Of a stretch of 64,000 nucleotides of DNA, positions 3,263 through 39,223 are shown piece by piece. The stretch is from NCBI RefSeq assembly GCF_000315485.1, contig NZ_JH992946.1, positions 248,001 to 312,000 on the forward strand. Reading direction: 5' to 3'. Each line of letters begins with the position of its first letter. The first letter of the stretch is position 1. Source of the DNA: Bacteroides oleiciplenus YIT 12058. GTDB taxonomy: Bacteria; Bacteroidota; Bacteroidia; Bacteroidales; Bacteroidaceae. The translations under genes and the position numbers were made by a program. Under the pieces are notes generated by a model that was not told the origin of the DNA, did no database searches, and saw only the letters and a list, made by a program, of their open reading frames with translations.

Positions 3263-4810
3263 GTCACTCCTTATGCGGGAGTGTGGATTGAAACAAAAGA
3301 GATGTCGTACAACATGAAGGCAAGTATGTCACTCCTTATGCGGGAGTGTGGATTGAAACTTCCGCTACGTGTCAAAGGTAGAATCAGCAAAAAGTCACTC
3401 CTTATGCGGGAGTGTGGATTGAAACATGGCAAGTATAAGTCTCAACCAACTATCCACAAGTCACTCCTTATGCGGGAGTGTGGATTGAAACCAAGTTGCA
3501 AGCACTTTGCAGGCGCCGCCTTTTTGTCACTCCTTATGCGGGAGTGTGGATTGAAACTTTTGCGCAAAGTAATGAGCAAACGCAAATGACGTCACTCCTT
3601 ATGCGGGAGTGTGGATTGAAACTCGGAAAGGCTATTGAGGCAGACGAACAACTTGCGTCACTCCTTATGCGGGAGTGTGGATTGAAACTGCCTTACACCA
3701 ATTACTTGTAGTAGTGGGCGAAGGTCACTCCTTATGCGGGAGTGTGGATTGAAACAAATCGCTCAAGGAGGAATAAAATACATAGGAAGTCACTCCTTAT
3801 GCGGGAGTGTGGATTGAAACTGCCCGTTAAAAACGGAAGATATGGACAAGATTAGTCACTCCTTATGCGGGAGTGTGGATTGAAACCGAAATTGTAGACA
3901 GGATACTATTGCCACTACTAGTCACTCCTTATGCGGGAGTGTGGATTGAAACCTCATTGTAGATGTTGAAGACACTTTTCAACATAGTCACTCCTTATGC
4001 GGGAGTGTGGATTGAAACAGAATAAATGTGATTGTAAATATCAAAGCGACAAAGTCACTCCTTATGCGGGAGTGTGGATTGAAACAACGAAAAGAACTGC
4101 AATGCCCAGTGCCGGAAGTGTCACTCCTTATGCGGGAGTGTGGATTGAAACCTACCTTTGCTCGAAAAATATATAGTTATGGCGTCACTCCTTATGCGGG
4201 AGTGTGGATTGAAACCAGCCCAATGTGGTGAAATTGTTATCCGTGAAGGTGTCACTCCTTATGCGGGAGTGTGGATTGAAACTGACTTTTTGCGGCATAT
4301 CCGACGGTGGTATTGGGGTCACTCCTTATGCGGGAGTGTGGATTGAAACTTGATAGGCGAAGAAAAGAAACGTATTGCCGCAGTCACTCCTTATGCGGGA
4401 GTGTGGATTGAAACTTTTAATCAGGATACCTTGCGCAGTATCAAGTACAGTCACTCCTTATGCGGGAGTGTGGATTGAAACATTATCACCTTCAGGTACT
4501 TATTGAAATATTGGGTCACTCCTTATGCGGGAGTGTGGATTGAAACCATGTCTTCCGTGCAGGAAGTGATGATGTCGGCAAGTCACTCCTTATGTGGGAG
4601 TGTGGATTGAAACCTGAAAAGTTAATACCCAATAATGAAGATAAGAAGTCACTCCTTATGCGGGAGTGTGGATTGAAACAGGGCTGCTTCGTATGTCTGC
4701 CGGAAAGCAATAGTCACTCCTTATGCGAGAGTGTGAATTGAAACCAGTAACCGGTGCGCGCTTTCACATAATTTCAGTCACTCTCCTTATACGGAACTCT
4801 GGATTGAAAT
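3263..4810 (+). CRISPR. Type I-C CRISPR array, 24 repeats and 23 spacers
   Basis: A 32-nt repeat beginning GTCACTCCTT and ending GGATTGAAAC recurs with a period of 64-67 nt, giving spacers of 32-35 nt. Repeat starts include 3263, 3328, 3394, 3460, 3526, 3591, 3657, 3724, 3789, 3855, 3921, 3987, 4054, 4120, 4184, 4251, 4318, 4383, 4450, 4515, 4582, 4648, 4713 and 4777. CACTCC and GGAGTG inside each repeat can form the stem that Cas5c is known to cut in type I-C systems, leaving a short 5' handle ending ATTGAAAC. Repeat 21 has one change, repeat 23 two, and repeat 24 (4777-4810) is degenerate with two extra bases. No two spacers look alike. Confidence 0.98.
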
Positions 4811-5417: not shown

Positions 5418-5897
5418 ATGGCTATTAAGTATGAAGTAAAGAAGGTAGTGTTTGGTTTCGATAAAACTAAAACTGAGAAATTTGTGGCACAAACGAAAGT
5501 GTTGGGCATGGTAGAATTTAAGAAACTCTGCGAAGAAGTGCAGAAAGTGAGCATGGCACCGCGTGGCGTGGTGAAAATGGTGATTGACGGGCTGATTGAC
5601 ACCCTGAATATGGATTTGGACAAAGGATATTCCGTTCAGTTGGGAGACTTCGGCTGCTTCCGTCCCGGACTGAATGCGAAAAGTCAGGTGGGAGTGGACG
5701 ATGTGGATGCAAATACGGTGTATCGCCGTAAAATTATCTTCACCTCGGGAAGCTATTTCAAGGATATGCTGGGTAAGACCAGTGTGGAAAGGCTGGAATT
5801 AGGTAAGGGGACTGTGATTAGAGACGCAGTCGTTAAACCGAAACCGGGTGAAGGTGGCTCCGGTGAAGGCGGTTTGGAAGAAGATCCTTTGGGATAA
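5418..5897 (+). CDS. HU-like DNA-binding protein (HU-HIG family)
   Basis: This 159-residue protein has the Bacteroidales HU-HIG fold: an N-terminal strand and helix region (MAIKYEVKK...), the helical segment VEFKKLCEEVQKVSMAPRGV and the HU-like core LGDFGCFRPGLNA. The C-terminus is a low-complexity Gly/Glu/Pro tail (KPKPGEGGSGEGG). Related proteins bind DNA non-specifically as nucleoid-associated factors; these variants are abundant in Bacteroides and their exact roles are mostly unknown. It stands alone with its own promoter, next to the CRISPR trailer. Two hairpins follow its stop. Family assignment is firm, specific role is not. Confidence 0.85.
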   Translation: MAIKYEVKKVVFGFDKTKTEKFVAQTKVLGMVEFKKLCEEVQKVSMAPRGVVKMVIDGLIDTLNMDLDKGYSVQLGDFGCFRPGLNAKSQVGVDDVDANTVYRRKIIFTSGSYFKDMLGKTSVERLELGKGTVIRDAVVKPKPGEGGSGEGGLEEDPLG

Positions 5898-17357: not shown

Positions 17358-17445
17358 TTCTGGAAGCTTTACGAACGCGTTCATAAAGCTTCCAGAGCGT
17401 GTTCGTAAAGCTTCTGGAATACGTTCATAAAGCTGGGTGTATCAT
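17358..17445. repeat. 22-nt periodic intergenic repeat with palindromic start
   Basis: TTCRTAAAGCTTC-type units begin at 17380, 17402 and 17424 (the last diverges after AAAGCT), exactly 22 nt apart. An inverted copy lies at 17363-17375. The first two units create a palindrome at 17360-17395 with 17 of 18 pairs. It lies between the GNAT gene and porP, with no coding potential. Confidence 0.75.
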
Positions 17446-36759: not shown

Positions 36760-38541
36760 TTATAAACTATTTGTTTTTTCTTTCAACCATTCCTGTTCTT
36801 CTTTGTTCAGGCTTGGCGATAATTTCTCATAGACAGTCTGATGATATTTGTCGAACCATTCGATTTCTTCTTTGGTCAGCAACTCTTTAATGATGCCTTT
36901 CTTGCAAATAGGGCAAAGAGTAACTGTCTCGAATTGCAGATAATTGCCAAACATGCCTTCACCCGCCGGAACCACCAAAACAAGATTCTCCGTACGAACC
37001 CCATGACTCCCTGCCTTATATACCCCCGGCTCATTAGAAGTCAGCATACCCAATTGCAGTGTTACCGGATTTTCATTCATGCGGATGCTTTGCGGACCTT
37101 CGTGTACATTCAGGAAATGACCGACACCGTGCCCTGTGCCATGCAGAAAATTCATGCCCCGCTGCCATATCGGCATACGCGCCAGTACATCCAGTTGTGC
37201 CCCCCGTGTGCCAACGGGAAATTTTGCCATTGCCAGTGCAATGTGCCCTTTCAGTATCAGTGTATAATCTGTTTTTTCTTCTTCAGTCAGTTCCCCCAAC
37301 GCAATAGTACGCGTAATATCGGTCGTTCCATCCAGATATTGCGCACCAGAATCCAATAGTAGAAAACCTTTTTGCTTCAGAGGGACATCCGTTTCAGGTG
37401 TAGCTTCATAATGCACAATAGCCCCATGCTCTTTGTAGCCGGCAATTGTATCGAAACTTTCTCCCATATATAAGTCCTGTTCGGCGCGGAAGTCGTGTAG
37501 CTTTTTATCCACACTAATTTCGGTTTCTTTACCCGACGGTACGGCTTCTTCCAGCCATTTCAGGAATTTCACCAGCGCCACTCCATCCCGTTGCATGGCA
37601 GCATGTATGCCGTTGATTTCTTGCTCGTTGCGGATGGCTTTCAATAATGTAACCGGAGAAACACCATGAATAATCTTGCAATTAGGATTGATAGCCGAAT
37701 ACATGGCATAATTCGTTTTAGCCGGGTTGACGAGCAGACTTTCAACCTCAATCCGATTGAGGTACATTTCTACTTCTTCATAAGAGTGTAGGCTTACACC
37801 TGTCGTTTTTAAATATTCGGCAACTTCGGGAGTGATTTTCTGCGGTTGGATAAAATAGTGTATATCCTGTTCTTCAATCAATAGGTAACTGACAATTACA
37901 GGATTGCAATGTACGTCGTTACCGCGTAGATTAAGCGTCCATGCAATCTCGTCCAAAGCAGATAAAAATAACGCTTTGGCATTGCTTTTCTTCAATTCTT
38001 CCCGGATGATAGAAATCTTTTCCACGCTACTTTTTCCGGAATATCTGGTTTCATGAATGAAAGCGGGGGCCTCCGGCATGGATGGACGATCAGTCCACAA
38101 CTCCTCCATTGGGTCCGGAATATTTTTTATGTCTATTCGGCATTTCTGTAATTCAGCTTGCATTCTTTCCACTTCTTCTGCCGAGAACATTTTTCCGTCA
38201 ATGCCGACTGCATCACCCGGACTTAACTCTGTACATAAGAACGTGGAAATACTTGGTGTATCGGGGAGCATTTCCTTGTAAAGTTCTATTTCCGTACCTT
38301 TCAACTGCTGGGCGGCTTGGAGAAAATAGCGGGAGTCAGTCCAAAGCCCTGTCTTGTCCGTGGTGATAACGATGGTTCCTGCTGAACCGGTAAAACCGGA
38401 AATCCATTCTCGGGATTTCCAATGGGGAGCAACATATTCACTCAGATGCGGGTCCGTACTTGGAATGATGAAGGCTTGTATACCTTCTCGACTAAACAAT
38501 GCCCGTAAGGCTTGAATCCGATTGTTTATTGTTTGGCTCAT
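36760..38541 (-). CDS. Xaa-Pro aminopeptidase (M24B, aminopeptidase P family)
   Basis: The 593-residue protein has two N-terminal creatinase-like domains (FIIPSTDPHLSEYVAPHWKS, TDKTGLWTDSRYFLQA) and the pita-bread M24 domain. Metal ligands appear in LLLDSGAQYLDGTTDITRT (two Asp), LHGTGHGVGHFLNVHEGPQ (His), TSNEPGVY (Glu) and GVRTENLV (Glu). It removes N-terminal residues before proline. A TATCTTTG element on the minus strand at 38583-38576 could be its promoter. No signal peptide, so it is cytoplasmic. Confidence 0.95.
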   Translation of the reverse strand: MSQTINNRIQALRALFSREGIQAFIIPSTDPHLSEYVAPHWKSREWISGFTGSAGTIVITTDKTGLWTDSRYFLQAAQQLKGTEIELYKEMLPDTPSISTFLCTELSPGDAVGIDGKMFSAEEVERMQAELQKCRIDIKNIPDPMEELWTDRPSMPEAPAFIHETRYSGKSSVEKISIIREELKKSNAKALFLSALDEIAWTLNLRGNDVHCNPVIVSYLLIEEQDIHYFIQPQKITPEVAEYLKTTGVSLHSYEEVEMYLNRIEVESLLVNPAKTNYAMYSAINPNCKIIHGVSPVTLLKAIRNEQEINGIHAAMQRDGVALVKFLKWLEEAVPSGKETEISVDKKLHDFRAEQDLYMGESFDTIAGYKEHGAIVHYEATPETDVPLKQKGFLLLDSGAQYLDGTTDITRTIALGELTEEEKTDYTLILKGHIALAMAKFPVGTRGAQLDVLARMPIWQRGMNFLHGTGHGVGHFLNVHEGPQSIRMNENPVTLQLGMLTSNEPGVYKAGSHGVRTENLVLVVPAGEGMFGNYLQFETVTLCPICKKGIIKELLTKEEIEWFDKYHQTVYEKLSPSLNKEEQEWLKEKTNSL

Positions 38542-38583
38542 ATTCTATATATAATAAGGTGTAACATTAATCCCTCAAAGATA

Positions 38584-38946
38584 CTCACTTTCTTTGAATA
38601 TTTTTGTGGCCCACTATACTTTATCCGTCGGCATAGTAGAAACTAATCTCTATACCGCAAGAAACTAATCTCGGGGATACTAAAAAGTATTCATACAACA
38701 ACTGTTTAAGTTTCCTACAATAACTATTTAAGTTACTTACATCAACTGTTGTAAGAAACATTATTATTTATTGTATGAATACTTTTTAGTATCCCCGAGA
38801 TTAGTTTCTTGCGGTTCGGAGATTAGTTTCTTATAGTCTCGCGATTAGTTCTTAGCGCATTCTCGGTTGGTTTGTCTTTTTCCTCCGTCGGAAGAGGTTT
38901 GAGATGAGATAATCTTTTCTCTTTTTGCAGTTTTTTGGCAGAAAGT
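38584..38946. other. Gene-free region dominated by a large palindrome
   Basis: The gap between the aminopeptidase and rpsU (about 490 nt) has no coding potential. It holds the palindrome described separately at 38638-38831, further 22-nt units to about 38880, and then the rpsU promoter. Confidence 0.7.
38638..38865. repeat. Large palindrome built of 22-nt units
   Basis: Bases 38654-38698 and 38771-38815 are perfect reverse complements over 45 nt. After a 3-nt mismatch, 38638-38650 and 38819-38831 add 13 more pairs, giving arms of about 61 nt around a 72-nt centre. GAAACTAATC begins at 38639 and 38661; its complement GATTAGTT begins at 38799, 38821 and 38843; AACTRTT in the centre begins at 38700, 38722 and 38744: every step is 22 nt. 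ATAGT flanks the arms at 38633-38637 and 38833-38837, a possible target duplication. Confidence 0.85.
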
Positions 38947-38977
38947 TTTGTGAATAAAGAAACTATGTGTAATTTTG
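38947..38977 (+). promoter_or_regulatory. Promoter of rpsU-xerC-hpf
   Basis: TTTG at 38947-38950 and TAATTTTG at 38970-38977 are 19 bp apart, a near-ideal Bacteroides promoter, 54 nt before the rpsU start. Confidence 0.75.
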
Positions 38978-39031: not shown

Positions 39032-39223
39032 ATGATTGTAGTACCTGTAAAAGAAGGCGAAAACATTGAAAAAGCGCTGAAGAAGTTTAAAAGAAAATTT
39101 GAGAAAACTGGTATCGTTAAAGAATTAAGAAGCAGACAGCAGTTTGACAAACCATCTGTTGTTAACAGACTTAAGAAAGAACGTGCAGTTTACGTACAGC
39201 AACTTCAGCAAGTAGAAGATTAA
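39032..39223 (+). CDS. rpsU: 30S ribosomal protein S21
   Basis: The 63-residue basic protein matches S21: MIVVPVKEGENIEKALKKFK and RKFEKTGIVKELRSRQQFD. S21 helps the 30S subunit in initiation; in Bacteroidetes it has been linked to occlusion of the anti-Shine-Dalgarno sequence, in line with the general lack of such sites here. First gene of rpsU-xerC-hpf. Confidence 0.96.
   Translation: MIVVPVKEGENIEKALKKFKRKFEKTGIVKELRSRQQFDKPSVVNRLKKERAVYVQQLQQVED

Follow-up and report, generated by a model that had tools for sequence, protein, structure and literature searches.

The question raised by this locus is what a large palindrome built of phased 22 nt units, lying between two divergent genes, might be and what might recognize it. 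The window, by which we mean the whole stretch of 64 000 nt of the Bacteroides oleiciplenus YIT 12058 genome that was analysed, carries the palindrome between a gene of the aminopeptidase P family (pepP; 36760–38541 on the minus strand, with its 5′ end towards the element), assigned from its open reading frame and protein likeness, and rpsU, for ribosomal protein S21 (39032–39223 on the plus strand), an open reading frame named by sequence reading. Here and around the other copies described below, gene names and directions are a reading of open-reading-frame lists, not annotation. In our view, and on the basis of sequence comparison, the window element is probably one of several scattered copies of an operator array that belongs to an HU-HIG protein which would regulate itself and has a putative winged helix at its C-terminus.

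The palindrome itself is as originally predicted: direct reading and folding place two perfect arms of 45 nt at 38654–38698 (plus) and 38771–38815 (minus), around a centre of 72 nt at 38699–38770. A repeat search finds longer imperfect arms of 83 nt (38638–38720 and 38749–38831) which are 88% complementary. The predicted words are likewise present at a spacing of exactly 22 nt, with GAAACTAATC at 38639 and 38661, AACTRTT at 38700, 38722 and 38744, and GATTAGTT at 38799, 38821 and 38843. Among the 20 Tandem Repeats Finder rows for the window (score of at least 40), period 22 occurs only at 38685–38755, 38797–38854 and 17364–17434; the last of these is the locus near 17.36 kb for which the same period had been proposed, and lag 22 is the best lag there.

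From an alignment of copies projected onto the window, we read the whole element (38625–38860) as ten dyad sites at a pitch of 22 nt, centred at 38635.5, 38657.5, 38679.5, 38701.5, 38723.5, 38745.5, 38767.5, 38789.5, 38811.5 and 38833.5. The inner (B) block at 38691–38779 consists of four dyads of the form ACAAYA..TRTTGT, bounded by TTCATAC and GTATGAA, and makes this a copy of type FFFRR. The outer (A) words are AAACTAAT on the left side (38640–38669, plus strand) and ATTAGTT on the right side (38800–38850, minus strand), both with 22 nt spacing. Two TAnnTTTG-type boxes, both recognized by pattern match, flank the element: TATCTTTG (38576–38583, minus strand) is a candidate for pepP, and TAATTTTG (38970–38977, plus strand) is a candidate for rpsU which is conserved in orthologous gaps. 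A CRISPR array was rejected as the identity of the element, as the units are diverged, 22 nt long and without spacers. Elsewhere in the window, at 3327–4349, Tandem Repeats Finder does report a CRISPR array with 32 nt repeats (GTCACTCCTTATGCGGGAGTGTGGATTGAAAC).

The element is one of 12 related loci in the genome (7.09 Mb in 15 contigs), ten of which are full length and two of which are short with outer units alone. As read from the open-reading-frame lists, the neighbouring genes are divergent at eight of these loci, codirectional at three and convergent at one. Within the genus, nine of 119 genomes match the element at E ≤ 0.001, its own included; the match in genome G168 is a single weak stretch of 30 nt, and relatives with E below 1e-10 occur in seven other Bacteroides genomes. 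Carriers include B. stercorirosoris (G195), B. timonensis (G234) and B. cellulosilyticus (G190). A family-level DNA search with the window copy gave matches in seven of 151 genomes, again including its own, the others being short and weak. We note that the window-family matches listed for two large contigs, of G221 and G205, lie between 3.5 and 6.7 Mb; the numbers are small, but the copies may be unevenly distributed over the chromosome.

The alignment contains 38 copies, ten from the genome itself and 28 from the seven others; the two short loci of the genome itself were left out, as were L091 (at a contig end), L106 (short) and L118 (the 30 nt match). Over 230 columns (101–330) 36 of the 38 copies are gap-free and the other two are gapped by 3 and 1 near the outer edge, although the copies were collected by BLAST likeness, so that copies with large insertions were possibly missed and the gap-free share is perhaps somewhat too high. 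The autocorrelation of column conservation peaks at lag 22 (0.53). The four inner dyads have an A.A..T.T core with half-sites TAC and GTA, and on either side of them are three sites that are centred on TGC(A) and carry the words CTAAT/ATTAG. For the inner words the arrangement is FFFRR in 19 copies and FFFFR in ten, with rarer or ambiguous arrangements in nine. A constant length combined with a variable orientation suggests that it is the spacing which is constrained. Complementarity of the outer arms is higher within copies than between them (0.747 versus 0.651, with the value within the copy higher in 27 of 38), which is not the case for the inner arms (0.581 within versus 0.611 between), and the perfect arms of the window copy therefore appear to be mostly homogenized outer arms.

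The pepP–rpsU gap can be followed in relatives. In G191, G195, G205 and G221 the flanks align and a short remnant is found near AGAAACTA...TTTCTTGC. The gap of B. cellulosilyticus (G190) contains a palindrome of another family, with 22 nt spacing and perfect arms of 33 nt (L069, 1147–1236); its words are those of the second array family described below, and a short form of this palindrome is seen by eye in the gap of G234. The gap of G226 contains no repeat with 22 nt spacing. These gaps do not bear out the suggestion that the element is flanked by an ATAGT target-site duplication. Orthologous gaps have GGCATATTAGAAACTA and CTTGCAGTC, or close variants of them, at the two places, and in the remnant-bearing relatives the ATAGT positions read ATATT (ATGTT in G191) and GCAGT (GCAGC in G191). 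As both places differ from ATAGT in the orthologous gaps, the two ATAGTs look like point changes and not like a duplicated target.

The candidate for a protein that reads the element comes from another of its copies. The copy at C3:738350–738545, which matches the window element with E = 2.1e-25, adjoins a gene for a 203-residue HU-HIG protein (G000:C3:737683–738291), and its outer edge is about 40 nt 5′ of that gene (in L009 the arms begin from 2982 and the 5′ end of the gene is at 2942). The HU-HIG family (PF18291), reportedly named in a 2017 paper, comprises proteins in which HU is fused to a wHTH, an Ig or a glycine-rich motif, and the protein beside the copy belongs to it by score (E = 3.6e-38, 130.9 bits, compared with a curated cut-off of 26.2). 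Its HU part matches solved HU/IHF chains. The C-terminal segment is conserved across 32 aligned proteins and gave no separate match in Pfam; we read it as a putative winged helix (wHTH).

A copy of the same family, with the same words, also lies beside the orthologous HU-HIG gene in G221, G205, G195, G190 and G191. Among the 119 genomes of the genus, the element is present in all seven which have an HU-HIG ortholog of at least 60% identity (hypergeometric 1.4e-10, a value uncorrected for kinship and drawn mostly from one clade). The exception in the words is G226, where the ortholog (63% identical) has upstream words of the TCTTTCCAC kind (L134, 594–673) and a window-family copy, its 22 nt spacing confirmed, is located elsewhere (774584; L117, 1255–1336). 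Gene and words are thus mismatched in G226, and this mismatch slightly lowers our confidence in the interpretation of the window element. In B. timonensis (G234; L111, 1383–1640) an internal deletion and a premature stop disrupt the HU-wHTH gene beside its array, and arrays remain in the genome.

If the HU-HIG protein reads the array, other HU-HIG proteins which share its C-terminal part should own arrays. The genes used for this comparison were 20 chosen by protein similarity alone, together with the paralogs in the genome itself and members from additional genomes within the order; the 314 nt upstream of each were scanned at lags 12 to 40 (29 lags) against dinucleotide-preserving shuffles. 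Lag 22 was the best lag upstream of 34 of the 36 wHTH-type genes, a set that includes close orthologs, with p ≤ 0.01 in 33 of the 36; when the seed gene and its G191 ortholog are removed the figure is 32 of 34. The exceptions are L163 (lag 33) and L224 (lag 19), and L147 is weak (p = 0.017). Of 51 control regions of the window, taken upstream of open reading frames of at least 150 residues that include nested and probably false frames, two have best lag 22, namely the 17.36 kb and 38.5 kb loci, and the difference from 34 of 36 corresponds to a Fisher value of 2e-19. A best lag of 22 is expected by chance in about 1/29 of regions, so that it is the scores and places of these two loci, and not their count, which matter; both have p = 0.005 against shuffles, and p ≤ 0.05 was obtained in six of the 51 regions.

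In a wider control of 123 non-nested open reading frames, from the window and seven loci, lag 22 was best in eight, and in six of the 60 which have at least 150 nt before them. Four of the eight are pepP gaps (those of the window, L081, L082 and L086), one is the 17551 locus, and the others are L082 8528, L084 18092 and L087 4150. The best-lag-22 scores of L084 18092 and L087 4150 are 29 and 28, respectively.

Relatives of the HU-HIG protein were also found in 16 of 72 556 plasmid records and six of 50 697 phage records. In a second set of genes, taken from 15 of these 22 matching records, 12 have best lag 22 and three have lag 21, compared with lag 22 in two of 45 control pieces of the same records; the set is not fully independent of the first, as L230 and L240 appear to be near-duplicates of L141 and L150. 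The strong lag-21 arrays (L236, L238 and L239) precede genes for HU-wHTH relatives in records from Phocaeicola and Parabacteroides. We considered and rejected the idea that the relatives are plasmid-borne, since the ten plasmid records examined (L230–L239; B. finegoldii, P. massiliensis and Par. distasonis), all of them TSDC17.2 assemblies, appear to be fragments of chromosomes. Carriage on viral contigs was also rejected: none of 50 stretches matching one search pattern codes for a relative.

One of these records bears on the pepP neighbourhood. In Parabacteroides distasonis (L234, 701–1997) an HU-wHTH relative with a lag-22 array immediately precedes an aminopeptidase P gene, the product of which is 54% identical to that of the window across 205 residues. 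The pepP-side arrays of the clade may be the remains of a former home locus.

Lag 22 is also found upstream of some short HU-HIG genes, and a wHTH is therefore not strictly required. Among 17 such genes the best lag is 22 in three and 23 in three, and p ≤ 0.05 at lag 22 is reached in seven, where the split between wHTH-type and short genes is one of open-frame length, set after the repeats had been listed for most genes, and S_L173 (213 residues, with a strong lag-22 array) and S_L176 (200 residues) possibly belong with the long genes. The genes with best lag 23 are L171, L176 and L178, an example being AAAACATGGGGATGTTTTCACCC before L178. The short HU-HIG gene inside the window (5418–5792; G000:C7:253418–253792) has best lag 17 and is without a lag-22 array.

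Comparison of the arrays indicates that the register is shared more widely than the words. The four-dyad block aligns gap-free across subfamilies in 26 of the 36 arrays, of which 20 remain after a filter at 80% array identity. The subfamily words differ (TTCTTTCCACCATGG, TCGTCTGACTATAGT, TCGTCTGACAACTGT, TTGCACGAA and others) on the same pitch of 22 nt. This agrees with the original prediction that the period and not the sequence is kept, and arrays with subfamily-specific words upstream of HU-wHTH genes lend support, at the level of sequence, to the suggestion made there of an array for a protein. Array identity is correlated with protein identity (r = 0.77 for 32 genes, a value reached by none of 2000 permutations), and among the 455 pairs whose proteins are less than 60% identical r is 0.52; the correlation arises partly because array and gene are inherited together.

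In 21 of the 36 cases the 60 nt that precede the array contain a TAnnTTTG box, compared with a background of 50 in 1066 60-mers of the window, and the gap between box and array is 12–14 nt in all 21 and 13 nt in 19. For the primary sigma factor of Bacteroides, the consensus at −7 is described as TAnnTTTG (PMC7366714). With the box 12–14 nt before it, the array would begin near the expected transcription start.

Two further dispersed array families occur in the genome. The second family includes the array of the HU-HIG paralog C7:242698, which is about 5 kb outside the window, and has five further clear genomic copies, 84–97% identical, and one weak match. Over 67 nt the identity between copies reaches 97%, and by eye the clear ones have similar flanks beyond the core. 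A mixed-word copy (C4:131333) is 72% identical and, again by eye, resembles the array of paralog L152. At least two second-family copies are apparently located between convergent genes, a placement which does not fit promoter control and which, for those copies, favours folding or plain spread over regulation. The third family, with AAGCTT and GAACGCGTTC words, is represented in the window at 17364–17434 and has 14 loci in the genome. Its own words are spaced by 22 nt in 11 of the 14; of the other three, L199 has 44 nt spacing, L201 has another family's words only and L198 has nothing. None of the listed HU-HIG genes is within 10 kb of any of the 14 third-family loci. We also observed a further 22 nt family with TTACAYGCCGWGGTAAAG-like words beside two third-family copies (L200, 1350–1412; L201, 1684–1750).

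An alternative account of these data is that the element is a selfish or miniature transposable palindrome, similar to a MITE or REP, which spreads between genes, the HU-HIG promoters being merely among its sites or their arrays having turned mobile. The element is indeed multicopy and intergenic, and the occupation of the pepP–rpsU gap by the window family here, by remnants in four relatives and by a different family in G190 can be read in this way, as can the close identity and common flanks of the second-family copies. Moreover, the genome has two Y1_Tnp matches, one of which, an IS200-like gene (L013, 5542–6123), is about 2.5 kb from one copy. We nevertheless judge this account unlikely: the target duplication is absent at the window copy, the window-family copies are old (orthologs are 89–93% identical), a mobile element is not expected to stay gap-free over 230 columns in 36 of 38 copies, and chance insertion would be unlikely to give subfamily words at a fixed distance after a box at many HU-HIG/wHTH genes. 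A Y1 transposase is probably not the main partner, with just these two matches in the genome and one of them near a single copy. Selfish spread and the operator-array interpretation are compatible, as the former can be the route by which copies of the latter are spread.

The palindrome might instead be transcribed as a long hairpin, acting as a terminator, small RNA or leader. The predicted fold is very stable compared with those of shuffled sequences (z = −16.5 and −15.7 for the two strands), the outer arms match better within copies than between them, and transcription is to be expected at the HU genes, where the array follows a promoter box. This is very improbable as an explanation of the element, however, and the lower complementarity of the inner arms within copies than between copies argues against the hairpin RNA that had been put forward, at least as a general rule. 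Furthermore, the FFFFR copies (ten of 38) cannot pair throughout, eight of the 12 loci in the genome itself are between divergent genes, and the seven Rfam matches listed are all under their gathering scores. A known RNA family was rejected since the microRNA-precursor matches fall below the gathering scores, and we take such matches to be typical of any long hairpin. An invertible segment with the arms as recombination sites would account for the perfect 45 nt inverted arms and for the several orientation classes of the inner words, but we regard it as scarcely credible. With orientations judged by eye, all three orthologs of the own_C6_53 locus are of the same class after correction for the direction of the locus, and five of the six copies at the HU promoter agree with each other (F=FFR or FFFFR), the exception being G234_C14; among nine other full copies in the genome, the repeat search gives arms of 70–88% complementarity in eight and none in the ninth. 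Minisatellite-like arrays are common in bacteria, and chance or simple tandem duplication with no function might produce a periodic stretch of this sort. The gap-free register between diverged copies and the occurrence of lag 22 in almost all of the wHTH-type genes, compared with two of 51 control regions, leave this explanation with a very small probability, slightly above that of inversion.

The operator-array interpretation has partial parallels in known systems. Like the REP/REPIN–RAYT pairs, a gene is tied to its own palindromic repeat, which is dispersed between genes. RAYTs are transposase-related and a REP spans 20–40 bp, whereas the partner here has no catalytic domain in Pfam and the element consists of about 230 bp of phased dyads. 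The 22 bp iterons of R6K and the ParR/parC system have sites at whole helical turns, cooperative binding and autoregulation; they are plasmid replication or partition sites present at one or two places, unlike the present arrays, which are chromosomal, scattered and palindromic, with a predicted binder fused to HU.

The BrickBuilt MITEs of Porphyromonas gingivalis are described as intergenic and multicopy, with between 1 and 22.8 tandem units of 23 nt, IS5-like terminal repeats, a leader and a tail, and BrickBuilt_14 is tabulated beside a gene for a DNA-binding protein of the HU family (PF00216) (PMC4596501). The element resembles them, as described there, in being intergenic and multicopy, in its short tandem units and in having one copy beside an HU-family gene, but its full-length copies are fixed in length and the window copy is without a target duplication. 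At the P. gingivalis capsule locus, a 77 bp inverted repeat upstream of the operon is preferentially bound by the HU protein PG0121, the gene for which is at the same locus (PMC3969353). That case differs in that the HU protein is of about 10 kDa, a single locus is involved and a 22 nt phased array is not among the features described in that account (PMC3969353). A full-text search of one literature collection found no published description of cognate DNA arrays of HU-HIG proteins; the one paper listed there for HU-HIG concerns, by its title, a Bacteroides vulgatus strain and celiac disease.

Returning to the interpretation of the window element as an operator-array copy, we infer binding, repression and a role for the dispersed copies from the arrangement described above, and propose the following mechanism. 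Dimers of the HU-wHTH protein would dock at one dyad after another, with a spacing of two helical turns (22 bp) that places them on the same face of the DNA. The winged helix would read the subfamily words and the HU body would bend the DNA, and neighbouring dimers would connect to form an uninterrupted nucleoprotein complex, by which about 230 bp would be bent or coated. At the home gene, where the array starts shortly after the −7 box, binding would shut the gene off. At the scattered intergenic copies the same complex would form and could affect neighbouring promoters or chromosome folding. In the window, it would lie just upstream of the pepP promoter, with the rpsU box about 110 nt away on the other side, and might tune pepP or rpsU or mark a point of chromosome folding. 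That the element regulates rpsU or pepP in particular we regard as doubtful.

A more general proposal, which we offer tentatively and at slightly less than even confidence, is that the Bacteroidales possess a set of HU-like architectural proteins, every one of which would have a winged helix and a dyad code of its own at a pitch of 22 bp (21 or 23 in some relatives), would repress its own gene and would mark a private set of scattered intergenic sites. Several orthogonal chromatin-like systems would then coexist in one genome, with arrays being copied, shortened and replaced at the same site. HU proteins are usually considered to bind DNA with little sequence preference. If the proposal is true, it would mean that common gut bacteria have sequence-addressed chromosome structure or regulation. 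Because sequence is all that is needed to find an array, it would become possible to predict where many uncharacterized HU-HIG proteins bind DNA, and a class of puzzling palindromic intergenic repeats might find an explanation.
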